Virus record (IMG/VR): IMGVR_UViG_3300033571_029110
Coordinates: 1 to 36,011 of that record
Direction: 5' to 3' (one strand)
Length of the DNA: 36,011 bases
DNA from: a virus
Below the pieces are notes generated by a model. It did no database searches. It worked only from the letters and a program-made list of their open reading frames with translations, and had not been told where the DNA came from. The first letter of the stretch is position 1; each line of letters begins with the position of its first letter. Both the position numbers and the translations under genes were made by a program. Shown one piece after another: positions 4,444 to 34,206 of this stretch.

Positions 4444-6090
4444 TTATGTTTCTTCTGGGGCTGGTTCTTCAGTAGCTCCAGATTCTTCTTCTGGTGGTGT
4501 TGCTTCTTCGCCTTCTCCTCCCTCTTCTCCTGCCTTGGGTGCTTCTCCTTCTTTTTTTTCTGCCCTTTCTTTATAAAGCTTATTTGTCATTTTATCCTCA
4601 TAAGGAATTTCTAAAAATCTGTCTATCAAAAAGTCCTGGACAAAATATTGTATTTCTTCGTCTCCTGAAGGCTCCTTAATTTCTCCCATGGAATTAATGA
4701 AATCAATCTGCTTCAGGAGCTGTTGTATTTCTCTAGACTCACCAAATTGGTTATCACTTTCAAACTTTACTCCTATCTGGCTTCTAAACTCAGCATCATT
4801 TCTTAAAAATGGGTAATCTAAACACATCTGGATCCAGAGAGGCTTTGTAACTATTTCTTGAAAAATTGATCTTAGCCTTGTTACAAATTTAGAAAATCTT
4901 ACTTCGTCTCTTTCTGCCCCTTCAGAGGCGAGTTTATAACTGTTCCCGTTAGCGGCACCAAATCTAGCAGAGAATCTGTTATAAGGGATTTTTGAATCCA
5001 TTCTAAGTTTATTATAAAAATAAACCACAGAATCCATGATGTTTAGGTTCGGTCCCTGTGCGTTTAGTGTTTCAACTTTAACCGATTCTCCTCCTTGTTG
5101 CGGGAATAAATAGTTTTTGTAAAACTGAACGTCGGGCCTACCATTAATAGCTAGCTCCCCTGATGTTGTATCTAGTTTTATGTCTTCTTTATAAATCGAC
5201 ATAAGTTCCCCTAGAGTTTCTTTTGCTTTTTGTGGAGATTTAGTTCCGATAGGAACCGTCATCTTAATTCTGTATTGAGCATTCATAACATTCCAAATAA
5301 TTCTGGAATGTTCCATAATTTTTAAAAGGTTGTATGAGCGAATAAGTCTTTCACAATAAGAGGTTCTTGAAACAGTATTTCCTTTTGCGTAAGAGATATA
5401 AATCACCTGTGCATCTAAAAGCTTTCTCTGTCTTGTTGTTTCTCCGTAATACTGCCACCAGATTGTTTCCATTGTTCCATCTGGTCTTTTCTCCACTGCA
5501 GGGGATAAACTGATAGCATCTAATTCTTTAAACCCAACAATGTCTTTTCCGTCGTTGGAATAAATGATCTCCAAAGCTAAAAATCCATCAACAAGAAACT
5601 GCCTGAAATAATGCCATCCTGAAAGACCGTTTGTAAAGTTGTGTAAAACGTACAGTTTCCTGAAATTTTTTCTGAGAGATTCAATAACTTCATCCTTTAA
5701 ATCCATATTTACCATAGTAGGATGACAAAAAAAGTTTTTCTCATCATATACTATAGCTTCGTCACAAATAGTGTCTAGGATGTATTCGATTTCAGCATTA
5801 AGAGCAAATTTTCTTATAAAATCTCTTTTGAAAGGATAATCCTTATCAAAATATGCAATATATTTTCTGATTGATGTGTCCTGTGCAGCTATTGAGTAAA
5901 TAAAATCTTCGTCATCTTCAGAGAATCCAAATCTTTCTCTAAGATTAGCTTCTGAAATACCTACTGCCATTGAATCTTTTATAACAAGATCGTTATAATC
6001 CATTCCAAATGTTCCTAAGCCACTAAGAGTTTTAAATATCCTAGCGAAATTAGGATTAAAATTTTGTAAGTTGTCTAAAAATCCTGACAT
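4444..6090 (-). CDS. 20: Portal protein, second copy (T4 gp20-like)
   Basis: A 548-residue portal protein; T4 gp20 has 524. Portal proteins form the dodecameric ring at one head vertex through which DNA is packaged and to which the neck binds. The gp20 pattern is clear: the YIAYFDKDYPFKRDF region near the N-terminus, the segment EYILDTICDEAIVYDEKNF, the stem/crown region containing VPIGTKSPQKAKETLGELMS, and a C-terminal acidic, Pro/Glu-rich tail (about the last 50 residues). It lies five bases after a paralogous gene with the same domain order. Across 52 aligned residues around SPQKAK the two copies share about 42 identities. Whether both proteins enter the ring or one is a specialised variant is unknown. 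Confidence 0.92.
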   Translation of the reverse strand: MSGFLDNLQNFNPNFARIFKTLSGLGTFGMDYNDLVIKDSMAVGISEANLRERFGFSEDDEDFIYSIAAQDTSIRKYIAYFDKDYPFKRDFIRKFALNAEIEYILDTICDEAIVYDEKNFFCHPTMVNMDLKDEVIESLRKNFRKLYVLHNFTNGLSGWHYFRQFLVDGFLALEIIYSNDGKDIVGFKELDAISLSPAVEKRPDGTMETIWWQYYGETTRQRKLLDAQVIYISYAKGNTVSRTSYCERLIRSYNLLKIMEHSRIIWNVMNAQYRIKMTVPIGTKSPQKAKETLGELMSIYKEDIKLDTTSGELAINGRPDVQFYKNYLFPQQGGESVKVETLNAQGPNLNIMDSVVYFYNKLRMDSKIPYNRFSARFGAANGNSYKLASEGAERDEVRFSKFVTRLRSIFQEIVTKPLWIQMCLDYPFLRNDAEFRSQIGVKFESDNQFGESREIQQLLKQIDFINSMGEIKEPSGDEEIQYFVQDFLIDRFLEIPYEDKMTNKLYKERAEKKEGEAPKAGEEGGEGEEATPPEEESGATEEPAPEET

Positions 6091-6095
6091 CAGTT

Positions 6096-7688
6096 TTATA
6101 AGTTAAATTCTTCACCTTCTTTTTTTTCTCCCTCTTTTCCTTCTTTTCCTTCTTCTTCCTCTTTCTTCTTTGCTAACTTTTTCTTTAGATCGTCGTTTTG
6201 TAAAAGATCTTGTGAAGTCATCCCTGAATATCTATTAACTAAATAATCTATATTGAAGTATGGTTTTCCTTCTGAGTTTTTTAATCCATACATTTTTATT
6301 AATTGTTCCTTTCTAGAGGTCATCAATTCAATTTCTTTAGCCATTGTGAAATAGTTCTCTTTCACGTAATCTAGGCCAAATTCGGACTTTAAAAGATAGT
6401 CATTTTTTCTTTGTGGAAAATCTAGACAAAATTGAATCCAAAGGGGTTTAGTAAGGATCTCCTGGTAGATTGATCTTAATCTGTTAATGAATTTACCAAA
6501 TCTTATCTCTTCCTGGTCTAATCCTTCTGCATTAAATGTGATAGTTCCTTCTGAACCGGATTCTTCCCTACCAAATCTGGTTGCTGGAATTTTTGAATCC
6601 ATTCTAAGTTTGTTTGCAAAATATTGCAAAGCATTGGTATCTGAAAAAGCTGTTGCATCTCCTGCGTTTGCAAGAGGTTGTATATCAGGAGTTCCGTTGG
6701 GGGAGGAAGGCATAAGATAGTTCTTAAAGAATTGTATCTTTGGTCTTCCGTCTATGCTTAGTTCTCCACTATCAGTATTAAGTCTTATATCCTCTTTATA
6801 TATTGACATAAGTTCTCCTAAAGTTTGCTTAGCCTTCTGTGGAGATTTTGTTCCTATAGGAACACTCATTGTCATCCTATAAGAAGAATTCATGACATTC
6901 CAAATAATTCTAGTATGCTCCATAATTCTTAAAAGATTGAATGATCTAACCAATCTTTCAGAATAACTGATCCTTGCAGAAGTTCCTCCTCCTTTAGCAT
7001 AAGAAATATAGATAATCTGGGAGTCGTAAAGTTTTCTAGTTAAAGATGGATTATCTGGATATTGGATCCAAACATCTACGAAGGATCCGTCCATCTGCTT
7101 TTCTATCGTTGGTATCAGTGAGGCAGGATCTAGTTCTTTAAAACCTATAATTTCTTTCCCTTTCGGATCAAATATTATCTCAAATGAAATAATACCATCT
7201 ACCAAGAATTTTCTAAACATGTGCCACGCAAGAATATCCTGATTAAATCCAAAAAGATTGTAGATCTGTTTATACCTCTTTTGTACCTTTTTTACTATAT
7301 CCTCTTCAGCATCGTTGTGTTGCATAAAAGAAAAATATGCCCAAAAGTTTTTCTCGTCATAAACTATCGCTTCGTCACAAAGAGTGTCTAGAATAAATTC
7401 TATTTCGGGATTTTGTGAAAATCCCCTTAGATAGTGTCTCCTGTTTTTGTAGTCCCTGTCAAAATAAGCAATATATTGTTTAGTGACCGAGTCTGCTCTT
7501 TTTAATCCTGCTAAAAAGGCTTCGTCTTTAATTCCTCCTTTTTTAAGAAACTCGGCTTCTGTAACACCTACAGCCTGTGAGTTTTTAATAACTAAATCCC
7601 CGTAGGCCATCCCGAAAGCACCAACCTTCTTGACGCTGTCGACGATTGAATTTAAAAAAGTTTTTTTTCCGTCTGTAAAACCGGCCAT
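6096..7688 (-). CDS. 20: Portal protein, first copy (T4 gp20-like)
   Basis: A 530-residue portal protein, paralogous over its whole length with the next gene downstream. Shared landmarks are YIAYFDRDY, EFILDTLCDEAIVYDEKNF, IISFEIIFDPKGKEIIGFKE, VPIGTKSPQKAKQTLGELMS, NKLRMDSKIPATRF and a C-terminal Lys/Glu-rich tail (EEGKEGKEGEKKEGEE). The two copies differ mostly near the N-terminus, in the insert before LRMDSKIP and in the tail. The first copy has a Lys-rich tail and the second an acidic Pro/Ala-rich tail. It starts with ATG 3 bases after the preceding gene and is co-transcribed with gp4 and the gp55-like gene upstream. The portal assignment is firm; the reason for two copies is not known. 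Confidence 0.93.
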   Translation of the reverse strand: MAGFTDGKKTFLNSIVDSVKKVGAFGMAYGDLVIKNSQAVGVTEAEFLKKGGIKDEAFLAGLKRADSVTKQYIAYFDRDYKNRRHYLRGFSQNPEIEFILDTLCDEAIVYDEKNFWAYFSFMQHNDAEEDIVKKVQKRYKQIYNLFGFNQDILAWHMFRKFLVDGIISFEIIFDPKGKEIIGFKELDPASLIPTIEKQMDGSFVDVWIQYPDNPSLTRKLYDSQIIYISYAKGGGTSARISYSERLVRSFNLLRIMEHTRIIWNVMNSSYRMTMSVPIGTKSPQKAKQTLGELMSIYKEDIRLNTDSGELSIDGRPKIQFFKNYLMPSSPNGTPDIQPLANAGDATAFSDTNALQYFANKLRMDSKIPATRFGREESGSEGTITFNAEGLDQEEIRFGKFINRLRSIYQEILTKPLWIQFCLDFPQRKNDYLLKSEFGLDYVKENYFTMAKEIELMTSRKEQLIKMYGLKNSEGKPYFNIDYLVNRYSGMTSQDLLQNDDLKKKLAKKKEEEEGKEGKEGEKKEGEEFNL

Positions 7689-7691
7689 TAT

Positions 7692-8282
7692 CTATTGAAC
7701 ATTTTTCTTATATATCTCTTCTATCGGGGTCCCTTCAATTGAACGTGTATAAAGATATACTATCTTAGTCCAATCTTTGTAAGGAATTTCTCTTAGATCC
7801 CTAACTTTTTTCAAGTCCCAGCTTCTATAGGAGTTTTTAAAAGGTATTCCATTTAAAATTAAATCCAGTGTTTTGAAATCTGTTTTTAATTGTATCTGGT
7901 CTCTCATTTCTCCTCTTTCCTGTAGTTCGGTGTTTTTCCTTATCTGAGATTCATAAACACTGGTAATTCTATTGAAAAGGGGTAACCTTATTGTGGGAGG
8001 AACAAGGATAAGATCTATTCCATAAAATAAATCTTTTTCACCCTTAGTCTCAAATCCACTAAAGAAAATTACCGGTCTCTTATTAATGAATTTTTTCGGC
8101 TTTTCTAATCTGTCTAAATACTCAAAAGTGTAAATTTTTCCTGCAAGAAGGTCTTTAGGATTTAGTGATGAAGGTTTATTTAAAAAATTCTTTGTCCAGT
8201 ATAAAAAGGCCTCTTCTGCTAATGATCCTTTTCCTACTAGATCTAACTTGTAATCTTCAAACTGTTGGTTAAATGATTTCAT
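7692..8282 (-). CDS. Hypothetical protein between gp4 and portal
   Basis: A 196-residue protein without a name I can give with certainty. A central segment (about 48-100: AGKIYTFEYLDRLEKP, then NKRPVIFFSG, then GIDLILVPP) looks like a small beta-rich domain. It recalls a family often found near head-completion genes in large T4-like phages, in which a Gly-Lys/Arg-aromatic strand precedes a hydrophobic strand and a conserved pair of Pro. A later segment, IPYKDWTKIVYLYTRS, is also conserved-looking. It overlaps the gp4 gene by 4 bases and is 3 bases from the portal gene, so it belongs to the same head-assembly unit. Its role is an inference from position only. Confidence 0.75.
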   Translation of the reverse strand: MKSFNQQFEDYKLDLVGKGSLAEEAFLYWTKNFLNKPSSLNPKDLLAGKIYTFEYLDRLEKPKKFINKRPVIFFSGFETKGEKDLFYGIDLILVPPTIRLPLFNRITSVYESQIRKNTELQERGEMRDQIQLKTDFKTLDLILNGIPFKNSYRSWDLKKVRDLREIPYKDWTKIVYLYTRSIEGTPIEEIYKKNVQ

Positions 8283-8764
8283 CTCAGTATAAAGCTTTCG
8301 TCTATTGCACCAAATTTGTATCCTCTTGTTTCGGCAAACCTCGTTGCTGCTTCAAACTTTGCTCTATTGGTTATCCAAACTTTAAGCCTATCGTTATATG
8401 ATTTTACCTTTTTTTCTGTAATCTTACCTTCTAACACAGGTTTTTTATCTAGCTTATATTGATTTTGTGGTTTGATGTCAATAATCCATTCTTCCATTAT
8501 CCCTTTGGAATTTATGACTTTTATGTAGTAGTCTGGATAGTAGTTATGCTCTTTTTTGTCTATGGGACTCCAATACCTAATAACCAGCGGTTCAGAACTC
8601 CACTTTAATACATTGTGATTCAGATCACAATATTGGCTAAATTTTCTTTCCCACGAGCTTCGATAAATAATATTGTTTATGTCACCAATGTATTTTTCCG
8701 GATTCTGTGGGGTGTATTTTCCGGACTTGAATCTACCAGAGGGCTTGAGCTTTTTTATATCCAT
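8279..8764 (-). CDS. 4: Head completion protein (T4 gp4-like)
   Basis: A 161-residue protein closely matching the pattern of T4 gp4 (150 residues), needed to finish DNA-filled heads before tail joining. Recognisable elements in order are GKYTPQNPEKYIGD, IIYRSSWERKF (residues 33-42), the W..SEP.VI.Y segment (about 55-65), YYPDYYI (D78), WIIDIKPQ (D96, K98) and a helical end with AAxRFAExRGYKF. The E39, D78 and DxK residues resemble the core of PD-(D/E)XK nucleases, to which this family has been related. It sits directly downstream of the gp55-like sigma factor and upstream of the portal genes. Confidence 0.88.
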   Translation of the reverse strand: MDIKKLKPSGRFKSGKYTPQNPEKYIGDINNIIYRSSWERKFSQYCDLNHNVLKWSSEPLVIRYWSPIDKKEHNYYPDYYIKVINSKGIMEEWIIDIKPQNQYKLDKKPVLEGKITEKKVKSYNDRLKVWITNRAKFEAATRFAETRGYKFGAIDESFILR

Positions 8765-9126: not shown

Positions 9127-9368
9127 TCGCTAGGAAAATTATTTTGGAGCTTTTTAATTTGTTGCTCGATTGTTACCCTCAATTGTTCCAAATTTTCCTT
9201 AGATTTTTCAATTACTTCTATTCCAATTTTACCGTTTTCTTCGCTGGAAGTTTCCAATTCTTTTAATTTACTCAAAACCTGAACTAGATCAGATAAAACA
9301 AAATTGAGTCTGTTACCAATTCCTTCATCAGAATCGGTAACAGACTCTACAATTTTATTACTTTTTAC
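9123..9368 (-). CDS. Coiled-coil reading frame without start, probable -1 frameshift extension
   Basis: This frame encodes 81 residues and ends with TGA overlapping the gp55-like ATG (ATGA). The product is amphipathic and helical (for example LSDLVQVLSKLKELE and EKSKENLEQLRVTIEQQ) and ends NNFPSE, so it looks like real protein. No ATG or GTG is available; the only conventional alternative is a TTG at the codon before SKLKELE, leaving about 50 residues. It is exactly in the -1 frame of the upstream 772-residue gene, whose last codons form the slippery heptamer A AAA AAG followed by TAA. A -1 shift there gives a product of 853 residues. Independent initiation is the main alternative. Confidence 0.6.
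   Translation of the reverse strand, partial: VKSNKIVESVTDSDEGIGNRLNFVLSDLVQVLSKLKELETSSEENGKIGIEVIEKSKENLEQLRVTIEQQIKKLQNNFPSE
9300..9356 (-). promoter_or_regulatory. Stem-loop downstream of slippery heptamer (frameshift stimulator or terminator)
   Basis: On the minus strand GAGTCTGTTACC (9347-9336) pairs perfectly with GGTAACAGACTC (9317-9306) around an 18-base loop. An outer arm AAAATT/AATTTT (9356-9351 with 9305-9300) extends it after a 3-base bulge. The inner stem begins 20 bases, and the outer arm 11 bases, after the heptamer at 9368-9374. A T-rich stretch (AATTTTGTTTT) follows, so it could also act as a weak terminator. Confidence 0.65.
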
Positions 9369-11683
9369 TTTTTTTTTGTCTTTGGTGCTGAAGAGAGTCC
9401 TGCTCTTTTCAAATCCTCAACAAATTTTTTACCGTTTTTCTTATGATTCCCTGGTGCTTCCTCTAGATTAGCATGAGCTTCATCTTCGATAAATTTTTTT
9501 GGATTAATGGATTTAGCTTTAGGAGCTTTTTCTGTGTGCGAATTAGCTTGTCCCTCTGCTAGATTCATATTCTTAAGATCTTCAATAAATTTAGCACTTC
9601 CTTTTACATTTGCTTGTGGTGCATCTGCTAGGTTTAGGTTTTCCAGATCTTCAATAAATTTTTTGCTCGATCCTGATTTTTTAGAGGGTGCGCTTGCTAA
9701 ATGACTATCAGAAGATTTACCTCCTTTTAAGGATTTTCCACTTTCTGGAGCTTCAACCAAACCAGCGTTTTTTTCATTTTCAACAAATTTTCCTGCAGAA
9801 CTTGCTGATTTACCTGGCGCTTTAGATAGATGTTTTTTGACAGAATTCATAAAAGCAGCATCATATTTAGCAGAAGGTGATTCTTTATCGGGAGCATGTG
9901 CTAAACCTGCATCAGTAGATTCATTGAAACCTGGATCAGATTCCATCTCAAGATCTAATGTTGGAGCGGTAATATCAATGTTTCCTACCTCGTCTTCGAT
10001 GTTTTCAACATCAGAGAAGAAATATTCTCCAGTTTTACCTTCACCAAACATAATAGTGTATGTTTTAGAATTTCCATCTACTCCAATAACTTTACCTTTT
10101 TGTCCGTTTCTTTTAATCCTAACAGGGGTGTCAATAGAATATCCCATTTCTTCGTTTACGTCTCCAGAAACAGATTTTGCATTTTTTTCTAAGTTGTTAA
10201 TCTCTTGATTAACTATGTTCCATCTATTCTTAAGGTCTGAAATTTCTTTTTCGATACCTTCTTCGATCTGAATTAATTCTTGAGAATCTGAAATTCTTGG
10301 ATTTTGAGACTTAGCAAATTTAATTTTGTTACTTTCGTTTTCTAGAATTTGTATGTTCTTGGCAATTTCTTTCTTATCATTTTTCATGATGCTAAGAATT
10401 GCCTGCTCTCCTTCTAAGAATTCTGTTAGAGATTCTGAGATGTCATATTTGATAAAATCCTTGATGATGCTCACTGCCTGTGTTGCATTGGCTTCGTAAA
10501 CCTTGTTGAGTTTCATCATAGGGTTTACTGTGTGAACGTATATTTTCTTTCCTAATTTAAAAATATTTGCTTCTACACCTTCATAGATTTTAGATTTAAT
10601 TTTCTTTCCGAAATCAATATCTGCTATTTCTTCTGAAGTGCTAGACACAAACAAAGCTTTAGAAATTTTCAATGATGAGTTTTCTAATAAGGTGTTTGTT
10701 GTTACACTAAGAAGTACAGGAAGTTCATTCTCGTTGATTTTTTTTCCGTTGAAATAAACTCTCTTTAGGTCATTTTCGTAAACAAATTCAACTTTATTGT
10801 TTCCAACATTCAAAGAAACTTTGTTGTTTGATATCTTAACGTCTCTGTCTTCTAGAATACCAGCTTTATTTACAAAATCTGGAGAGAGATCAGAAGGATT
10901 CACTTCTGTTAATGAAGTTTTGTCTTCATTTACAGAAAAGAATTTTCCGTTAGCATAAAATACTGATCCATTTTCTAGTACTTGGACTGGAGAATAAACG
11001 GAGGTAACCTCGCAAACTTCGTTATCGTAACCAACGTGGAATTTTGTTCCGTTTTGGTTTTCGTAAAGAGAGAGGAAGCTAACTAAATTTCTTACTTGTG
11101 GGTTAAATCCAAATCTTTTTAATCCGTGGATAAGAGTTTCTGTAGATCTGTTTTCTGAAATTAGCCACGATTTCATTTGTGAAGTTGCATCAGAAAAAAG
11201 ATCTCTTCCTGAAGTGCTTCTAATTGATTCGTAAGCTTTAACCACTTCAATTTCCCTTCTTCTGTTTTCTAAAATCGTATTCATGTTTTCTAAAACGGAA
11301 GCTACTGAAGATTCCCAAACAAAACCTTTAAGTTCATTAATAAATCCTTCTATTACGAAAGCTTCAGAAATGTTTTTAGAAACAAGTAAAAATTCATATT
11401 TTTCTAAAAGAATTTTTCCTGCTGGTAGTTCAGCAAAAGAAGAATTTTTAAGAGCAGAAATTGTATTTAAAACACCAAAAGAAAAAGAAGTTTTCCCTTT
11501 TTGTGTATATTCTTGCTCCGTTTTAGATTCGTTTATTCCCTGTGCTGTAGCTCCGTTAAGATAAGACGATCCTACCGTTGGATTAGAAGAATCTACTCCA
11601 CCCCAATTATTCAGGGATTCTGCAATTCTTTTTGAAGCTTCCATTTGGATTTTATTGATGTCATTATTCATGTTTTGTTCCAT
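9365..11683 (-). CDS. Large putative virion/scaffold protein with C-terminal repeats
   Basis: A 772-residue protein with no family I can name. Residues 1-420 are mixed helical and beta and include a segment with many short strands (about 200-330). Residues about 425-520 are charged coiled coil. A compact beta segment near 535-585 (VRIKRNGQKGKVIGVDGNSK) resembles a KOW or SH3-like fold. From residue 591 to the end runs a Lys/Ala/Pro-rich tail with about seven degenerate repeats of the type KKFIEDLxNLNLAxAP. Some repeats contain L-x-E followed by A or G (LVE-A, LAE-G, LEE-A), the consensus cut by the T4 prohead protease. The gene ends ACA AAA AAA AAG TAA, a slippery site. An internal head or core role is an inference. 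Confidence 0.8.
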   Translation of the reverse strand: MEQNMNNDINKIQMEASKRIAESLNNWGGVDSSNPTVGSSYLNGATAQGINESKTEQEYTQKGKTSFSFGVLNTISALKNSSFAELPAGKILLEKYEFLLVSKNISEAFVIEGFINELKGFVWESSVASVLENMNTILENRRREIEVVKAYESIRSTSGRDLFSDATSQMKSWLISENRSTETLIHGLKRFGFNPQVRNLVSFLSLYENQNGTKFHVGYDNEVCEVTSVYSPVQVLENGSVFYANGKFFSVNEDKTSLTEVNPSDLSPDFVNKAGILEDRDVKISNNKVSLNVGNNKVEFVYENDLKRVYFNGKKINENELPVLLSVTTNTLLENSSLKISKALFVSSTSEEIADIDFGKKIKSKIYEGVEANIFKLGKKIYVHTVNPMMKLNKVYEANATQAVSIIKDFIKYDISESLTEFLEGEQAILSIMKNDKKEIAKNIQILENESNKIKFAKSQNPRISDSQELIQIEEGIEKEISDLKNRWNIVNQEINNLEKNAKSVSGDVNEEMGYSIDTPVRIKRNGQKGKVIGVDGNSKTYTIMFGEGKTGEYFFSDVENIEDEVGNIDITAPTLDLEMESDPGFNESTDAGLAHAPDKESPSAKYDAAFMNSVKKHLSKAPGKSASSAGKFVENEKNAGLVEAPESGKSLKGGKSSDSHLASAPSKKSGSSKKFIEDLENLNLADAPQANVKGSAKFIEDLKNMNLAEGQANSHTEKAPKAKSINPKKFIEDEAHANLEEAPGNHKKNGKKFVEDLKRAGLSSAPKTKKK
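9368..9913 (-). repeat. Degenerate protein repeats (KFIEDL..NLAxAP)
   Basis: Residues 591-772 of the 772-residue protein contain units ending AGLAHAP, KHLSKAP, AGLVEAP, SHLASAP, LNLADAP, MNLAEGQ, ANLEEAP and AGLSSAP. Five are preceded by K(K)F(V/I)E(D/N). Units are roughly 18-30 residues apart. The codons are similar but not identical, so the repeats are old or under selection. Confidence 0.85.
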
Positions 11684-12209: not shown

Positions 12210-12692
12210 TTAGCTCGATACCAATCCCTCTCCTATGATAACCTCGATATTTACCCTGGCAGAGTGTGGATTATAAAGAAGCATGCCTCCCTGTTCAAAA
12301 TAGGGTGATTCTATATCACTCCCATTAGGATCTAAATCCCATCCGCCAAAAATATAGTTACTATTACCTGTAAGAATCATCAAATTTGCTATAGGTAGAT
12401 AATTGCCTTGATAAATTACATTAATAAATCTACTTGCTACTGGTAGGGTAGAAGGATATGTGGCTTTTATTAAGATAAAATCGACATTATCTATTCCTTC
12501 TGCACTAAGAACTAAAGATGAATTTGGGTATACACACCCATTAAAAGAGGAAAAATTATTCAGTATTATGTCAGTATCACAAAAGCTAAATTCACGAACA
12601 ATGGTAGTTCCTTTCACTACCTGTAAATTGCATCTTTGGAATAAAGATCCTTCAAATTGTATTGCATCACATACTAGAGGTGGTGTAGCCAT
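12210..12692 (-). CDS. Putative virion protein, paralogue of upstream gene
   Basis: A 160-residue protein of unknown function. It shares an ordered set of motifs with the gene just upstream: an N-terminal QRCNLQV segment versus QSCNLDI, then YQGNYLPIANLMILTG versus YKGQIYPINSLMVLTG, then GGWDLD versus QGWDLS, then QGGMLLYNP versus FGGILFNNP near the end. This indicates a tandem duplication. The content is mostly beta strands with few charged residues, as in virion surface proteins. The TAATG junction with the upstream gene indicates translational coupling. The frame stays open after the stop (see 12138-12209), so the C-terminus may once have been longer. Confidence 0.78.
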   Translation of the reverse strand: MATPPLVCDAIQFEGSLFQRCNLQVVKGTTIVREFSFCDTDIILNNFSSFNGCVYPNSSLVLSAEGIDNVDFILIKATYPSTLPVASRFINVIYQGNYLPIANLMILTGNSNYIFGGWDLDPNGSDIESPYFEQGGMLLYNPHSARVNIEVIIGEGLVSS

Positions 12693-13276
12693 TAGTTCAT
12701 TATTAATATTTCAACCTCTACCGGGTACGTTTCATTTGGATTATTAAATAAAATCCCGCCGAATGTGAAATCCGGAGAAGAAATTGGCGGAAAAATATTA
12801 GGTGAAAATCCAGGTACCGGTGGGTTATTTGAGTAATAACTCAAGTCCCATCCTTGCCATGGAATAGAGGGTTGTGTTCTTCCTGTTAAAACCATTAAAG
12901 AATTAATAGGATAAATTTGTCCTTTGTATTCCCATGTTAAATATCTGTCTTCAGAGGGATGTTTTTTGTCATATTTAACCTTAACAGCTATTAATTGTAC
13001 TTCCCCTTGTTCCTGTCCTATCTCTGGTGCAGTTAAGGTATAATTAGCTCCTGGTTGTAGTATAAAATTTCTTTTAGAAGATCCTCCACACCCTCCTAAT
13101 TCTCCGCTTCCTAAGGATGGCAGATTAAAATCACACAATGATACACTAGACAAAACATTTACACCTTCTTTAATGTCCAAATTACAAGATTGAAACACCA
13201 CCCTTTTATAGGTTTCTGGATTACAGTTTAAATGTTTTATGTAAACTGGGTCTGTTGTATTAATTTGTCCAATCAT
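12692..13276 (-). CDS. Putative virion protein, paralogue of downstream gene
   Basis: A 194-residue protein of unknown function, sharing the CNL, YPINSLMVLTG, GWDL and GGILFNNP landmarks with the 160-residue protein that follows. It differs by an extra Pro-rich loop (NNPPVPGFSPNIFPP) and a Cys/Gly-rich loop (GELGGCGGSS). Its start overlaps the end of the coiled-coil membrane protein gene by 17 bases, and its stop overlaps the next ATG as TAATG. The neighbours (collagen-like protein downstream) suggest a tail-fibre or head-surface group, but no enzymatic or receptor-binding motif can be seen. Confidence 0.78.
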   Translation of the reverse strand: MIGQINTTDPVYIKHLNCNPETYKRVVFQSCNLDIKEGVNVLSSVSLCDFNLPSLGSGELGGCGGSSKRNFILQPGANYTLTAPEIGQEQGEVQLIAVKVKYDKKHPSEDRYLTWEYKGQIYPINSLMVLTGRTQPSIPWQGWDLSYYSNNPPVPGFSPNIFPPISSPDFTFGGILFNNPNETYPVEVEILIMN

Positions 13277-22214: not shown

Positions 22215-25200
22215 TTAAGAAAATTGGATGAATCCTCCTGAAGAAATTCCACCTGTTCTAGTTACAGTCATTCTGTTGATAAACTTGTGGATACCTCTAG
22301 CAGGTTCAACAATAACGTCGATTATACCGAGGTTTTGATCGATAATAGCAGGAGTGTTATTAGAAGAGTCCATGATAGTTAAGTAGTTGTAGATACCTCC
22401 AACAGATCTTACACCTGTTAGATAGTTATCAACCAACGTTTTGATTTCAAGTCTTACTGAATCTTCATTAAAGTCGAAGACATAGTTACCAAGAATTTCT
22501 TCTATAGCACTTTCGATAGTGATCAGAAGATCTCTAACGTGTAAGTTATTGAAAGCAGAGTTAGTTCTTTGGTAGCTAGTTTGGTTACCGTAAATTACCA
22601 CGCCAATTCCTCTCTTTCTGATGATAGGGTTTAGACCAAATGGTTCTAAGAATTCTCTATCTTGTAGATCGAAATCGTATTCTAAACCTACTAGGTTGCC
22701 TGCAGAGATAATACCTCTTTTAACACCTGCTACGATAGAGTAAGGTTCTCCTGTTATAAACTTACGGATAAAGTTATTTGAAACGTAAGCTGCAGGTGGA
22801 ACGTTTAAGTTCTTGCCATTATCTCTGATCGTTAAGAACGGAGAGAAAAATCCTGAGAACTTAGCTCCTAGATCCTCATCAGGAAGCGAGAATGTGAAAG
22901 AAGGATTAAGACTTAAGTTACCGCCATCAGCAATATATCTAGCTTGTAAAATTGGAGCTGGATCAGTTGCTGTTGGAGCAGAAGTAAATCTTGGATCTAT
23001 AGACTCCTGGAATTTTTTAATAGAAGGAGCATTACAGATAGCCATACATTTCTGTCTGTTCTTAGCAAGCCTTGTGAGCTGGTATTTGCAGTTTGGCTGA
23101 ATACCTCCGTCGAATGTGTCAACCACATATCTGAAGGTGATAATGTCGGTGTCTGCAAGGGTTCTTCCTATGTTGGTTGTTTCTAAAACGTCCAAGATCT
23201 GATTTAATCTTGTATCGGTTCCGTTTGGTTTAGAAGCGTCCTTAATATCTGCACCTGGCAAATAACTAAAGTTGAAAGAAGTGACAAATTCTTGGATATT
23301 TTTAAATTTCCAAACTCTTGTTGTTACTCCAGGATAAAGCTTAATAGGTCTTTCAGTTTTAACCTGGATGGTGTAAACACCTGGTGAATTTGCTGATGCT
23401 ACAGTTTTAACCTCTAAAACTCTAGTTAATCTTGATTGTAAATTTTCAACCAGAGGATTGTCATAGATTTGAAGGTCTGTTGAAACAAGTAGATCGCCAA
23501 CTTTGATACCTGTAGAATTAGCTTCGGCTACCGTGAGTTCCACGACGTTTGGTGCTAATTGTGTGACAATATTTACATAATCTGAAATGTTACCCAATGT
23601 GGAAACAATGTTGAAAGATTCACCAGAAGTTAGGTTTGTTCCTATTGGTAAAGAACTGACGAAAGTTGTATCATAGTTAGCAATCACCTCAGGAGTAGTA
23701 AATGTGTCGTCCTGGAATGCTCTACAAACTAAGATGTTGTATCCGTCTCTGTCAACGTTAACCTCGAATTTTAGGTACTGAAGAAGAGTTCCTGTATCAT
23801 CTAACCAATCTAGGTCTCCGTCCCCGATGTTTCCTGCGATCCAATCCCTGTACATAGCAGAGTTTTCGTATGCTAAATAGGAGTCATTACCTACTGGGAT
23901 ATCAGGGGAGAAGAAAACGTTATCTCTATCAAAATAATCTGGATTACCTACTTGGTAAGCATCAACTGTACTCTTGTTTGTCTCGTACCATGGTTGAACA
24001 TAAGTTGTAGAAGGACTAGAAGAGATAAGTGGGTGTGAAAGTAAAAATCTAAGCTGTTGTCTATAACCAACAGGTAGAGAGTTATTAGTAATATATTTCG
24101 CTTCAGAAATTTTTAATTTTACTAAGTCTCCTTCGTAAAATCCTAGATATCCTGGAGTTGGAAGGTTAGAAGTCACTTTTCCTAAAATCCATCTGTCTGC
24201 AGGAGAAGTAGGAGATACACTAGTAAACGACTCTAATGTTTGTAGCTGAGTAGAATATAGTGTTGGATTTGTAAATTCTGTTTGCAAGAAAATTAATCCG
24301 CTGTCTCTCGAAGACGAGTTATAAGTAGCAAAATCGGAAACAGGAATTCCAGAATCCCCTGTTGCGTTATAGATACTGTCTATTAAAAGAGTACCTGTTT
24401 CTGGTAAAATGTCTAATCCTGTGTTAGGAGAAACTCCAGTGTCCGTAATATCCGTTCCTGCAGTTGCACCGTCTACGTTTCTGAAATAAGTGTAATCTGC
24501 GAAAAGATTTTGTGAATAAGAAAGGAAATCAAGAGATTTAGGAGTTGATGTTATGTCAGAATCTGGTGATCCAATTTCGTCTACTAAATGGTGACCAACC
24601 AAATCAACTACGCTGGAGTTGTTTAGAAGATCGTCTAAGGCTTCTTCATTAACTGCACAAAAAATTCCTGTAGTAGGAGTTTGGTTGTTGATTAGTGTTT
24701 GTACGTATCTTAAAGTTCCGTTTTGATCGATAAAGTTAGGAATCAAAGTACCGGTTACTGTTAAAGAAATATTAACACCATTTAGTGCTAAGAAATTATC
24801 AATTTGTGATTTAATTAGACCTTTAGAGGTGAAATATGGGCTATAGACTGGATCGTTTGCTAAAGCTTGATAATCTGTCCAGTTACCAGTTACGACGATA
24901 ACATCAATAAACCAATCTGAAAGGTAATCATATTGGTTCATAAAAGAAGGCACATTATCTGGACCAAAGTATTCTCTGGCGGTAATGTCAAATCCCCTTA
25001 AAGGAAATCTAGAATCTAGTGATTTTCTCACTATAACAGAAACAGGAGCTTGTCCTAGATTTACTATGCTAAATAATTTTCTAGAATCTGGTTGAGCACC
25101 GGATGTGTCTTCGGTGGCCAAAAGGTAATCTGTATCAGGAAACCAAAATTTTTCCTTGTTGTAATATGAGGAAAGAAGCTTGTCTTGTTTTGTTAAAGGG

Positions 25201-25619
25201 ACTGAATATCCTCCTGTGGCGTTAGCCCCGTTTTGTTCTTCTGTGTCAACAGAAAAAGCTCTGTATCTTGCTACATCCGCACCGGCTGCAAAGTCAGGAT
25301 CACCATTTTCATCTACTGTATTGTTAAGTAAACGAAGATTTAGTGCAAAGACTGGTCCAGTTGTTAAGCAGGTTTGAATAGATCTATGAAAGAAAGAGCC
25401 TTTCTTTTCTAGAGCCGAATCAATTCCACCAAAAACTGATTGAAATGTAGTTGTGTCTGGGCAATAAACCGGGGTGTTGAAAGGACCAATATTAGAATAA
25501 CCAACCACTAGACGAATAGTCTGTGGATTAATGATAATGTTTTCTGATGCGTCAAACTCCAGCGTGTAAACCCCGGAAGCTTTAAATTGCGATAGATCAA
25601 GTTTAACCTTTTTTGCCAT
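22215..25619 (-). CDS. 18: Tail sheath protein (T4 gp18-like), oversized
   Basis: A 1134-residue tail sheath protein; T4 gp18 has 659. The sheath contracts to drive the tube into the host cell. The N-terminus (GVYTLEFDASENIIINPQTI) and C-terminal domain fit sheath proteins: KRGIGVVIYGNQTSYQ, then NLHVRDLLITIESAIEEILG, then GIIDVIVEPARGIHKFINRM. The extra ~475 residues lie in the middle (about 150-800) and are beta-rich (Asp/Ser/Thr/Pro-rich loops), so they probably form domains projecting from the sheath surface. A TATAAATA box directly precedes the gene. Confidence 0.9.
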   Translation of the reverse strand: MAKKVKLDLSQFKASGVYTLEFDASENIIINPQTIRLVVGYSNIGPFNTPVYCPDTTTFQSVFGGIDSALEKKGSFFHRSIQTCLTTGPVFALNLRLLNNTVDENGDPDFAAGADVARYRAFSVDTEEQNGANATGGYSVPLTKQDKLLSSYYNKEKFWFPDTDYLLATEDTSGAQPDSRKLFSIVNLGQAPVSVIVRKSLDSRFPLRGFDITAREYFGPDNVPSFMNQYDYLSDWFIDVIVVTGNWTDYQALANDPVYSPYFTSKGLIKSQIDNFLALNGVNISLTVTGTLIPNFIDQNGTLRYVQTLINNQTPTTGIFCAVNEEALDDLLNNSSVVDLVGHHLVDEIGSPDSDITSTPKSLDFLSYSQNLFADYTYFRNVDGATAGTDITDTGVSPNTGLDILPETGTLLIDSIYNATGDSGIPVSDFATYNSSSRDSGLIFLQTEFTNPTLYSTQLQTLESFTSVSPTSPADRWILGKVTSNLPTPGYLGFYEGDLVKLKISEAKYITNNSLPVGYRQQLRFLLSHPLISSSPSTTYVQPWYETNKSTVDAYQVGNPDYFDRDNVFFSPDIPVGNDSYLAYENSAMYRDWIAGNIGDGDLDWLDDTGTLLQYLKFEVNVDRDGYNILVCRAFQDDTFTTPEVIANYDTTFVSSLPIGTNLTSGESFNIVSTLGNISDYVNIVTQLAPNVVELTVAEANSTGIKVGDLLVSTDLQIYDNPLVENLQSRLTRVLEVKTVASANSPGVYTIQVKTERPIKLYPGVTTRVWKFKNIQEFVTSFNFSYLPGADIKDASKPNGTDTRLNQILDVLETTNIGRTLADTDIITFRYVVDTFDGGIQPNCKYQLTRLAKNRQKCMAICNAPSIKKFQESIDPRFTSAPTATDPAPILQARYIADGGNLSLNPSFTFSLPDEDLGAKFSGFFSPFLTIRDNGKNLNVPPAAYVSNNFIRKFITGEPYSIVAGVKRGIISAGNLVGLEYDFDLQDREFLEPFGLNPIIRKRGIGVVIYGNQTSYQRTNSAFNNLHVRDLLITIESAIEEILGNYVFDFNEDSVRLEIKTLVDNYLTGVRSVGGIYNYLTIMDSSNNTPAIIDQNLGIIDVIVEPARGIHKFINRMTVTRTGGISSGGFIQFS

Positions 25620-25695: not shown

Positions 25696-27504
25696 CTAGG
25701 AATCGAGGAGACCGTTTAGAAATGTATAATTAGAAACGTCATTATTTTTCAGTGAACCGTTTTCAGAAGCTTCTTTTAATTTTTCCTCTATGGCTTTTTT
25801 AAATTTTTCAGGAATAATATCATAAACTTCGGAAACAGAATCTTCAAAATCTGTAGCATCAAAAACACAATTAAGATTAACCAGTGTCATAGCTATATCA
25901 TCTTTTCCTATCTGACTGGTAAAGCTTCCCCCTGCTCCTTGTCCAAAATTGCTGAGTTCGTGTACCGTGTTTTTTTCGCATGGTATTATTTTATTAGATC
26001 TCGTGTGGATTTTTAGATCATAACAATATTTTTCTTTGTTTCTAACAGTTAGTTTTACTCCTGGTTTTAATCTGGTGGAAGCTTCGGAATGCCTGCTATA
26101 AACAAACATTTCTTCAAAAATTTCTTCGGAGTCGAGCAATTTGTCCATGAGCATCTCACCTTTGTAGTCTAACTCTAAGACAATTCTTATGTTTTCTGAT
26201 CCAAGGACATGGACAATAAGGATTTCAAGAAAAACTTTTAATTCGTCTATAGGTATGGTGTTAGATCTAAACATTCCAATCTGTAAAAGACAGAAAAAGT
26301 CACCTTCGGATTCATAAAATTTCTTAGTCTGTATCACATTCATTGGCATAGGAGCAACCTTGAAAATATTAACCACCGAGTAGTCTCCTCCTCCCCCTCC
26401 TGCCGTATCTATACTAAGATAAAATTTTTGTATATCCTTTTCAAAAATTGAAGTGGGATCAAATTTAGGATGCCAAATTAAATTAGAATAATCTAAATAA
26501 TTGTTTTCGAAAGACGAAAGCTCGTGATGTATAAAAGTTTGTTCGTTGGTTTTTAATTTTTTAAGAGTAAAAGAGTCTAATAGTAGCCTAGAAGAAGAAA
26601 GAAACTGGCACCCATACTCTTGATTAAAATCTTCTTCTGATCCAAGTGCAGCTATTTCTTTCCTTCTCCATTCTTCGTCTCTCCCTGGAATTTGCCACCA
26701 TTCTACTCTAATAGGGTTAAAATCATTTTCCCCGTCTATAGCTCCTTTATAGATATCCCAGAATTTATTTAATCCGTTTGGTGTGGATGTGATAATAACT
26801 CTCGAGATCTGTGAAGATGATATAGTGGGATAAACTGATTTAAAGAAGCTATTGATAAAATTTGGATTAATGTGTGCAAACTCATCCATGTATAGCATGT
26901 GGATTGTATAACCGATAGAAGAAGTTTTTGTTGTGGTTTTTGCCATTATTCTACATCCGTTATCAAATTTCACCGTCATAACATTGAAGACTACAATACC
27001 GGGCTTAAGAAAAAATGGGAGACCTCTGACAATAACTTTGATTTTGTCCATCAATTCAGCAGCAGTGTCCCCTATGTTTGCCATAATCATGGCATTTTTC
27101 TCGAAATTAAATAGAAGATACCAAAGTAGGAAAATTGAGGAAGTAATTGTTTTTCCACTCTGGCGCGGTGACACAAAAACGTTTTTTCTGTGAAACTGAT
27201 ATTGGTTTAGAATCTGTATTTGGTAATCTCGAAGATGAATTTGTCTAATGCCATCATCGGTCATAACCTTACAATACTTGTTGGCAAAATAAACCACATC
27301 TCCTGCACATTTTTCAATTTCCTTTAATTCCTCTTCGGTATACTCAAAAATTATATTACCTCTTCTTAATTCTGGCTCGTTCTCGTGGAATGGGTTATCT
27401 ACTTCTTTGTAATCTATACCCATGTCCTCTGCCATCCTTAGAAGGTTGTCCACTCTTTCTGTGGACCATATACTAGCCGATTCTTTTTCTTTTATGTCTG
27501 GCAT
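25696..27504 (-). CDS. 17: Terminase large subunit (T4 gp17-like)
   Basis: A 602-residue packaging motor protein; T4 gp17 has 610. It pumps DNA into the prohead and cuts the concatemer. The ATPase domain has Walker A SPRQSGKT (112-119) and Walker B MLYMDEFAH (203-211), and coupling motif TSTPNGLNKFWD (239-250). The nuclease domain has SIDTAGGGGGDYS (D366), ELDYKGE (E444, D446) and a later DDIAMTLV segment, as in RNase H-like terminase nucleases. It begins 5 bases after the small-subunit gene, the T4 order. Confidence 0.95.
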   Translation of the reverse strand: MPDIKEKESASIWSTERVDNLLRMAEDMGIDYKEVDNPFHENEPELRRGNIIFEYTEEELKEIEKCAGDVVYFANKYCKVMTDDGIRQIHLRDYQIQILNQYQFHRKNVFVSPRQSGKTITSSIFLLWYLLFNFEKNAMIMANIGDTAAELMDKIKVIVRGLPFFLKPGIVVFNVMTVKFDNGCRIMAKTTTKTSSIGYTIHMLYMDEFAHINPNFINSFFKSVYPTISSSQISRVIITSTPNGLNKFWDIYKGAIDGENDFNPIRVEWWQIPGRDEEWRRKEIAALGSEEDFNQEYGCQFLSSSRLLLDSFTLKKLKTNEQTFIHHELSSFENNYLDYSNLIWHPKFDPTSIFEKDIQKFYLSIDTAGGGGGDYSVVNIFKVAPMPMNVIQTKKFYESEGDFFCLLQIGMFRSNTIPIDELKVFLEILIVHVLGSENIRIVLELDYKGEMLMDKLLDSEEIFEEMFVYSRHSEASTRLKPGVKLTVRNKEKYCYDLKIHTRSNKIIPCEKNTVHELSNFGQGAGGSFTSQIGKDDIAMTLVNLNCVFDATDFEDSVSEVYDIIPEKFKKAIEEKLKEASENGSLKNNDVSNYTFLNGLLDS

Positions 27505-32064: not shown

Positions 32065-34206
32065 CTAGGCTATCTTTTCGAATTGTAAATCTGAAAAGTT
32101 GTTTTTCTTAGATATTTCTATCTTATAATCAAATATTTCAGTAGGCATAGGTGCATGATTAATTACAAAGACATTCATGTGTAACTCATCACACATTTTT
32201 CTGAGTGTTGTTAATATGCTATGTACCCCATCAGGATCTACCGAACTAAAAATCTCATCAAGAAAAAGAATATTAATCGACGAAAACCTTATCTTCATTA
32301 ATTTAATGATTGCAATCAGAACAGCAAAATCAACTTTTTTCATTTCTCCTGTGGAAAGGGTATGTGTTGATATCTCTTCTCCAAGATGGAAGATCTGTGA
32401 ATTAAACTCTTCGTTAAATACCACTTTATAAGGCAAATGCAGCGATAAAAGTGTGTTGAGTATCTCTCTATTAAGGGAAGGCAAAATAGATTTAATAGCG
32501 AGCTGTTTAACGCCTTTCTCGCTTAAGACCTCGTCTATTGTCTTGAGCCAATCGTTCTTTTCCTCCCATTTGTATTTTTGAGAATTATGAACCTCCAGTT
32601 CCTGTGAAGATGAAGATAGGAGTTTTTTTATGGATTTAACCTGTTCGTTGTTATTTGAGGTCTTTAAGGTTTTAAGTTTTTCCTGGAGACTTTTTATAGT
32701 GTTTTCTATTTTACCACCTTTAGAAAAAAGATCATTTTTTTCAATAGAAACTCTTTCTTGTAATTTTTTTGCTTCCTCGTAATCTTTTTTTAATTTCTCG
32801 TTGCCTGTCGAGATAGAAATTCTTTGTTCAGATAGATTATCAAAAATAGATTTATGGAAATCTGAAGAGAAATCGGAAGAACATGTTGGGCATTTTTCGT
32901 TGTTGTAAAGGGAAAGCTTTCTGTCTATTTCTTTCAATGTACTAACCCCCTCTGAATAGATTTGATATGCTTTATTCACTCCATCTTGAACACTTTTTTC
33001 TTTTGTTTTGAAAGACTTAAGTTTTTCTATATGAAGTTTTAAAAGCTCTTTATAGTTTTCTAAAGTCTGTTCTGTTTCTTCTGTTTCCTGTCCAGCATTT
33101 TCCACCAATTTTTTTTGTAGTTCCTCTAATTCTCTCTGTGAATTGGATATAGATTTACCAGTTGCTAGAATTTCCCCTGTTAATCGTTCAACATGAGACT
33201 TGACAGCTTTCGATTCTTCTTTGAGAATATCCCTCATCTCATTCAAGATGTAAAATCCAAAAATTTTATCTATGATCTGTTTTTTATCACTGGAAGACAT
33301 TTTCAAAAAACTTTTGAAATCGTTGACGGAAAGGGAAATAGTGTTGTTAAAAACATAATAAGGGATCTTTAAAATGTCTTCTGTAATTACATCCTGTACA
33401 TTCTTTTGTCCTGCCCTATCATAATGTTTTCCGTCGATGTAGAGATCGAATACTGAGGGATCTAATCCTCTTTCAATCTCATAAACTTTTCCATTTTGTT
33501 CTAGAGTAATCCTCATCCATGCTGATCCGTTAGATCTGTTTGGGATATCCTTTAGCTTTTTGTTTTCTAATTTTCCGTAGAGACCAAAAGTGATTACGTC
33601 AGAAATAGTAGAGTTATGAGAGAGAATTCCGTTTCCGTAATAATTATGTGATTCTCTCACTTCTATATCATATAAATCGATTCTATCTTTTGATAGCTCC
33701 ATATTTGATATCTTGTGGTATCCTTCATTCGTTAGGATTTGATCACCTAATTTAAGATCCTTACACTTAATCCATTCTTTCGAGAATAGTAAATGATCTG
33801 GCGAACATTTGCATTCCATTCCGTTTTCGAGTTTAATTGTGTAGTAAAGCGAATCTGGCGCTGTTATTGCGGAATTATCCACATTAAACCATCCATCCTT
33901 TCCCTCTATTAGAAGATTTCCCATTTCTTCTGGATATTCAGAAAAAAAATCATGTAGATTCTTAATTGTTATTTCTACTTCCTTCTCTAAAGGTGACAAT
34001 GGTTCTAGCAAATATTTTTTGATTTTATTCCTAAATTCTGGACTATCCGGAATTTTTATTATTATCCTGGTGTCGGGGGAAAAACATTTACCAGCCCCAT
34101 TTTCTCCAAAAACCTGGATTAAACCCGCTTTATCAGAGAGTTCTATACTTTGTAATTTGTTCCCATAGGAGGAAACATTCCTCCATTCAATCTTCTTGAT
34201 CTTCAT
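32065..34206 (-). CDS. 46: Recombination endonuclease subunit (T4 gp46-like, SbcC/Rad50 type) with intein
   Basis: A 713-residue precursor. Gp46 with gp47 resects DNA ends for recombination-dependent replication. Extein residues 1-40 end in the Walker A start GENGAGK. An intein of 158 residues (41-198) follows. The second extein starts STISD, restoring GENGAGKST. After splicing the protein would have 555 residues, matching T4 gp46 (560). Other motifs are the zinc hook CPTC (439-442), flanked by coiled coils, the ABC signature LSTGEMKKVDFAVL and Walker B INILFLDEIFSSVD near the C-terminus. It overlaps gp47 by 20 bases. ATP binding should depend on splicing. Confidence 0.94.
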   Translation of the reverse strand: MKIKKIEWRNVSSYGNKLQSIELSDKAGLIQVFGENGAGKCFSPDTRIIIKIPDSPEFRNKIKKYLLEPLSPLEKEVEITIKNLHDFFSEYPEEMGNLLIEGKDGWFNVDNSAITAPDSLYYTIKLENGMECKCSPDHLLFSKEWIKCKDLKLGDQILTNEGYHKISNMELSKDRIDLYDIEVRESHNYYGNGILSHNSTISDVITFGLYGKLENKKLKDIPNRSNGSAWMRITLEQNGKVYEIERGLDPSVFDLYIDGKHYDRAGQKNVQDVITEDILKIPYYVFNNTISLSVNDFKSFLKMSSSDKKQIIDKIFGFYILNEMRDILKEESKAVKSHVERLTGEILATGKSISNSQRELEELQKKLVENAGQETEETEQTLENYKELLKLHIEKLKSFKTKEKSVQDGVNKAYQIYSEGVSTLKEIDRKLSLYNNEKCPTCSSDFSSDFHKSIFDNLSEQRISISTGNEKLKKDYEEAKKLQERVSIEKNDLFSKGGKIENTIKSLQEKLKTLKTSNNNEQVKSIKKLLSSSSQELEVHNSQKYKWEEKNDWLKTIDEVLSEKGVKQLAIKSILPSLNREILNTLLSLHLPYKVVFNEEFNSQIFHLGEEISTHTLSTGEMKKVDFAVLIAIIKLMKIRFSSINILFLDEIFSSVDPDGVHSILTTLRKMCDELHMNVFVINHAPMPTEIFDYKIEISKKNNFSDLQFEKIA
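33613..34086 (-). mobile_element. Mini-intein in the gp46 P-loop
   Basis: Residues 41-198 of the gp46 precursor. The N-terminus CFSPDTRIII has Cys1 and the DTxI pattern of block A. CKCSPDHLLFS carries the block B His. IDLYDIEVRESHNYYGNGIL is the block F pattern, and SHN followed by Ser is the C-terminal splice junction (block G). No homing endonuclease motif (LAGLIDADG or HNH) is seen in 158 residues, so it is a mini-intein. Confidence 0.92.

Follow-up and report, generated by a model that had tools for sequence, protein, structure and literature searches.

The 36,011-base virus record IMGVR_UViG_3300033571_029110, a fragment that is called the window here over its whole length, carries two adjacent genes for portal proteins of the T4 gp20 type. 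The upstream gene is referred to as copy A and the downstream gene as copy B; their coordinates and those of the other features are collected in Table 1. Phage portals are regarded as rings of a single protein that is encoded by one gene per phage, and the rule of one full-length gp20 gene per genome does not hold here, as every contig of this kind has two.

Both proteins are well above the curated cut-off of 22.9 bits of the Pfam family Portal_T4 (A 202 bits, B 199.6 bits), both match the PHROG portal family, and a sequence search of the PDB also led to the T4 gp20 type. AlphaFold2 models were of moderate confidence, with a mean predicted local distance difference test score (pLDDT) of 70.8 and a predicted template modelling score (pTM) of 0.61 for A, and 68.9 and 0.59 for B. 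Wing, stem, clip, tunnel loop and crown of the portal fold could be recognised in both models, and Foldseek returned T4 gp20 as the best match for each (probability 1.00, template modelling score about 0.5). Like T4 gp20 (PDB 3ja7, 6uzc, 9mkb, 9lu6/9lu7), A and B belong to PF07230 and follow the order wing-stem-clip-stem-tunnel loop-wing-crown. T4 has one portal protein that forms a homododecamer (PMC4493910), whereas two paralogues with differing inner clip and tunnel loops are found here.

A and B are 47% identical over 506 aligned residues. An earlier note on this DNA had described two complete gp20-type genes, neither of them broken, lying five bases apart, with about 42 of 52 residues shared around the motif SPQKAK and with a Lys-rich tail in one protein and an acidic Pro/Ala-rich tail in the other. 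This description stands: both genes are intact, 5 nucleotides (nt) separate the stop codon of A from the ATG of B, the tail of A is Lys-rich and that of B acidic and Pro/Ala-rich, and 52-column alignment windows that hold SPQKAK contain 43 identities at best and 36 at worst. The 5-nt junction leaves no room for a separate promoter, which suggests that A and B are co-translated. Taken by themselves, A and B are ordinary T4-type portals, and the new part is the co-retained pair.

Table 1. Features of the window that are discussed in the text (aa, amino acids; E, expectation value)
Feature	Position	Strand	Evidence and remarks
Portal copy B (downstream)	4444..6090	minus	548 aa, T4 gp20-type; PF07230 E 1e-58; phrog_213
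Tunnel loop of B, about residues 375-388, aligned to A374-386	4927..4968	minus	mean charge +1.59 (27 B)
Inner clip loop of B, about residues 330-342	5065..5103	minus	Lys/Arg in 25/27 dereplicated B
A/B junction, 5 nt from A stop to B ATG	6091..6095	minus	sequence
Portal copy A (upstream)	6096..7688	minus	530 aa, T4 gp20-type; PF07230 E 1.9e-59; phrog_213 portal
Tunnel loop of A, residues 374-386	6531..6569	minus	mean charge -1.26 (27 A); residues 375-385 of low pLDDT
Inner clip loop of A, residues 327-339	6672..6710	minus	Lys/Arg absent in 27/27 dereplicated A
DNA end protector (gp2-like), one copy, directly upstream of portal A	7692..8282	minus	phrog_429 E 1.1e-08
Head closure / head completion (gp4-like), one copy	8279..8764	minus	phrog_218 E 1.5e-43
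Tail tube copy 2, 192 aa	21008..21586	minus	phrog_45 tail tube E 1.4e-06
Tail tube copy 1, adjoins sheath, 190 aa	21597..22169	minus	phrog_3629 tail tube E 2e-08
Tail sheath, one copy	22215..25619	minus	phrog_34521 E 1.5e-114; paralogue scan of window
Large terminase, one copy	25696..27504	minus	PF03237 E 2.1e-21; paralogue scan of window

Conservation of the pair and its origin

To see how far the pair extends, IMG/VR was searched with B, with A, with a portal alignment and with the portal of phage LR756500, and a collection of phage records was searched in addition. The IMG/VR lists hold the best 80 matches per search, and the census is therefore a sample. It comprises 192 contig entries with a portal match, among which LR756500 and LR756501 each appear with a second place. 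Of the entries listed, 78 have both copies complete, always in the order A-B on one strand and with gaps of 2-23 nt, and a further 29 show both copies with one of them cut by the contig end (or split, in L010), so that 107 of the 192 have the pair. In 61 entries a lone complete portal is flanked by 600 nt or more on each side, and in 10 the flank is shorter; five of these 10 portals are of the A or B type, and each of the five lies within 230 nt of the contig end on the side where the other copy is missing. The last 14 entries are cut, split, recoded (Lak) or partial. Among the entries listed, no A- or B-type contig has space for a second copy without carrying one, and a third full portal copy was not found in the larger contigs searched.

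Conservation in related phages had been named by the earlier note as one way to check the pair, and a single copy in relatives together with absence from virions as the observation that would speak against it. The relatives in the large clade listed keep both copies without exception, so that this objection fails as far as the relatives are concerned. An artefact of assembly or chance was rejected because both copies appear in 107 of the 192 entries, with 77 complete pairs besides that of the window, and because selection acts on both copies. The lineage consists of very large T4-like tailed phages and was found here only in metagenomes; a search aimed at the host did not find the portal in cellular genomes. 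Annotated relatives among the phage records infect Prevotella, Tenacibaculum, Chryseobacterium and a Sphingomonas. Two portal genes of the census are split into two open reading frames (ORFs), copy A in L010:1542-3161 and a single portal in L201:119-1761, for which an intron, a frameshift or an assembly error are all possible.

The nearest named relative is the 462-kb phage LR756500, whose portal is about 42-45% identical to A and B. Unlike the pair lineage, LR756500 and the single-portal IMG/VR relatives have one full-length portal and one tail tube and lie outside the A+B clade. The Lak megaphages and the 634-735 kb phages LR756501-LR756504 and LR745206 share the portal family (about 34-36% identity to B) but have a single full-length portal. 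In the phage collection, 1999 records matching B gave 2001 places, and the extra places occur only in LR756501 and LR756503, where they correspond to a mini-portal, a shortened portal-like ORF of 342 aa. In the 735-kb phage LR756501 (L158:4021-5049, about 142.0-143.0 kb) this ORF lacks the portal middle, lies far from the portal and adjoins a thymidine-kinase-like gene; a gp23 capsid-like fragment below the family cut-off is located about 3 kb away (145855-146025). In LR756500, a stretch resembling the portal clip occurs in a 190-aa ORF (L157:3912-4481, about 256 kb), the neighbours of which look endonuclease- and intein-like by eye.

After dereplication at 92%, 27 of the 78 pair genomes (51 distinct A proteins among the 78) and 46 singles remained. 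The single portals of the phages PAU, PTm1, pT24 and MA9V-2 were kept in the tree and excluded from the domain and loop statistics. In the dereplicated tree of 93 portals, all A copies form one clade and all B copies another, with the same two subclades mirrored in each, stem branches of 0.19 and 0.21, and all 48 rows labelled as single outside the A+B clade. A more careful tree of 50 rows supported the A clade (P1) at 100/99.5 and the B clade (P2) at 100/97.3. Forcing A and B of the subclade of the window together cost 42.6 log units, and independent duplications in the two subclades were thus rejected by the approximately unbiased (AU) test (p-AU 0.0002). The nearest singles are L203-L205, L222 and L227-L229; there are long branches among them, and their exact order is unsure. 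A and B hence go back to a single event at the base of the lineage, in which a T4-type portal gene was duplicated in tandem.

Since this duplication, both copies have remained intact and in fixed order under strong purifying selection. The median ratio of nonsynonymous to synonymous substitution rates (dN/dS) was 0.026 for A and 0.036 for B with a maximum of 0.049 (67 comparisons with dS between 0.05 and 1), and it stayed below 0.05 in all ten non-overlapping genome pairs. Because this constraint acts on both, both copies are probably needed. The identity between A and B of one genome is about the same as that between A and B of different genomes in every domain, the largest gap being that of stem 1 (81.5 vs 77.6%), so that gene conversion is not what keeps the copies alike. 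A recent duplication or gene conversion was rejected on these grounds together with the overall identity of 47%.

Divergence between the two copies

Domain limits were transferred from T4 (PMC4493910) through the alignments of A and B. Stem helix 1 is the most similar between the copies of one genome (81.5%) and comes close to the identity among A proteins (84%) and among B proteins (86%). Clip and wing 2 are at 57%, and the tunnel loop and the crown/tail show the lowest values with 29-30%. No more than 6 strict type-II sites were counted, including 3 in the clip, and this number does not suffice for a domain map. The last C-terminal residue is a weaker A/B marker than it first seemed, being hydrophobic in 21/27 of the A copies, 12/27 of the B copies and 41/46 of the singles.

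Contrasts were also found in two loops that contact DNA. In the inner clip loop, a basic residue is absent from all 27 dereplicated A copies and present in 25/27 B, in 7/7 of the nearest singles and in 37/46 of all singles. In T4, R338 and K342 of this loop face the channel and are required for packaging, according to PMC4493910, which also describes that tunnel loops contact neighbouring subunits and help to set the 12-mer and that adjacent subunits share a clip beta-sheet. In the tunnel loop (A374-386), the mean charge is negative in A and positive in B (Table 1), while the nearest singles average -0.14 and all 46 singles -1.85, and A is lower than B in 27/27 genomes. Thus, two DNA-contacting loops have changed in a complementary way relative to the single-portal relatives. 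The opposite-charge pattern of the tunnel loop is unusual but not unique.

Tail tube and neighbouring genes

A second tandem duplication lies directly after the sheath gene of the window, where two tail-tube genes with 57% identity follow each other. Their assignment to the gp19 type is based on the matches to phrog_45 and phrog_3629 and on the position after the sheath; a sheath-like ORF of 870-1285 aa also precedes the tube at 9 of 12 single-tube loci. For the tube census, 38 pair contigs were queried (24 with two tubes, 2 cut by the contig end, 12 with none on the contig) and 28 single-portal records (13 with one tube, 1 cut, 14 with none), several of the contigs being near-copies of each other. 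Wherever the tube region is uncut, two tubes were thus found in 24/24 portal-pair contigs and one in 13/13 single-portal records. A profile search around 12 single-portal tubes did not find a second copy, and 30 phage records with a match showed one tube place apiece; the homologue of the Tenacibaculum phage PTm1 carries the annotation of a baseplate subunit. In the tube tree, first copies, second copies and singles fall into three groups with supports of 78/72, 84/84 and 93/91, weaker than those of the portals because the protein is short. The tube duplication tracks the portal pair over the same phylogenetic range, and portal and tube alone, among tandem pairs, exceed 40% identity in the window as well as in both of the largest pair contigs.

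The portal pair is placed in a head-morphogenesis cluster, with the gp2-like and gp4-like genes directly upstream; the gene downstream of B reads as a DNA ligase, not a capsid gene, from its translation only. Within the window, the DNA end protector and head-closure genes are single, and the paralogue scan found no paralogue of sheath or terminase. A gp23-type major capsid protein gene occurs once per contig in 6/7 pair contigs searched, and two matches in contig G003 share one frame.

Some further observations were made in the window. Another tandem pair (12210-13276) encodes proteins of 160 and 194 aa that are 28% identical and have no PHROG match. A gp46/SbcC-like recombination protein (32065-34206) has a Walker A motif that, by eye, seems to be interrupted by a small intein. 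A 772-aa protein without a PHROG match (9365-11683) shows several C-terminal repeats resembling KKFIEDLxxxxLAxAP, and a collagen-like repeat protein (1-957) is cut by the window edge.

Proposed composition of the portal ring

Two paralogues retained in one particle are also known from the T4 capsid proteins gp23 and gp24. These occupy different lattice positions, whereas the positions in a portal ring are equivalent, so that two portal proteins must either mix or form separate rings. The complementary changes at the two DNA-contacting loops favour mixing, and we give an even chance to the explanation that A and B co-assemble as subfunctionalised subunits of one ring at a single portal vertex. 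In the simplest arrangement, six A and six B might alternate, which would give a ring with 6-fold symmetry. Stem, clip and wing would form a ring-building frame common to both copies, and each copy would have lost or altered a different DNA-contacting element. B would supply the basic mouth of the channel through the inner clip loop that A has lost, and the opposite charges of the tunnel loops at the channel gate might favour A-B neighbours over A-A or B-B. Among the options that the earlier note had listed, the mixed ring thereby moves to the front; a prohead initiator or connector and two capsid forms stay on the list. The data show one duplication, retention of both copies, constraint, reciprocal loop changes and co-occurrence with the tube pair; mixing, alternation, symmetry and any functional tie to the tube are inferred.

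Several results weigh against a mixed ring. The number of evolutionary events behind the loop contrasts is small, since the 27 genomes all go back to a single duplication. For the tunnel loop, the charge varies with the limits set: A374-386 follows the loop of the AlphaFold2 model, whereas A368-393 gives -2.9 for A and +0.6 for B with the difference holding in 25/27. In addition, a control scan of 419 windows found a second place with opposite signs in 27/27 genomes, in windows starting at A139-140. In the clip, the two copies are further apart from each other than the members of each copy are among themselves, which separate rings could explain too. A and B are about equally like the nearest singles overall, with the exceptions of the tunnel loop, in which A is closer in 26/27, and of wing 2, in which A is closer in 4/27. 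Genome-matched parallel change between A and B gave no signal overall, with 11.3 concordant vs 11.0 crossed sites per genome pair, and the excess in stem 1 in this test depends on two sites. Finally, the comparison of A-B identity within and between genomes gave no sign of gene conversion in any domain.

The absence of a surplus of matched A-B change, the retention of all portal domains in each copy and the differences in C-tail and clip would all fit two homomeric rings with separate jobs in one phage, with one copy serving as the packaging portal and the other as an initiator of the prohead, as an additional connector ring or as the portal of another particle form. There was no sign of another head or neck set, because the major capsid protein was found only once in pair contigs and terminase, sheath, end protector and head closure are single in the window. 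Moreover, the basic clip residue that all seven nearest singles have would be missing from a ring made of A only. Separate rings are considered somewhat unlikely on balance. It is improbable that one copy has ceased to be a portal and taken up another structural or regulatory role, for example as a packaging regulator or internal head protein. The partial portal-derived proteins of LR756501 (342 aa) and LR756500 (190 aa) offer a precedent, but these are shortened or fragmentary, whereas A and B are full length and adjacent, are under similar constraint and have stem branches of nearly symmetric length. Simple redundancy or dosage by two interchangeable copies would suit tandem and probably co-translated genes but is very improbable, as a 12-subunit ring needs no additional dosage, the A/B-specific differences are consistent across the 27 dereplicated genomes and no copy was seen to be lost where the contig allows this to be judged.

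For the tail tube, a composition of two subunit types may be proposed as well, although more loosely than the mixed portal ring. A rather doubtful extension would be that the whole DNA conduit is built from obligate paralogue pairs, in which a 6A+6B ring would match the 6-fold neck and tail, the tube would consist of two types, and the duplication would have removed the 12-to-6 mismatch. The two duplications might equally well be linked merely by their fixation on the same long branch without a functional connection, a reading whose chances we regard as balanced. The co-occurrence of portal and tube pairs is effectively one phylogenetic event, and in T4 the portal and tube rings are not in contact, with neck proteins lying between them. 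On the other side, no tandem pairs but those of portal and tube passed the 40% limit in each of the three paralogue scans, and each of the two proteins forms a ring of the DNA conduit.

The open-access literature searched gave no paper on paired portal genes or on a mixed portal within a phage, although one may exist elsewhere. With a natural lineage that has two co-retained, complementary portals, it becomes possible to ask why portals have 12-fold symmetry and whether their 12:6 mismatch with the tail is a necessity. The pair likewise gives access to the separate roles of the inner clip and tunnel loops in packaging, and the matching duplication of the tube provides a test of whether whole conduits can turn two-component.

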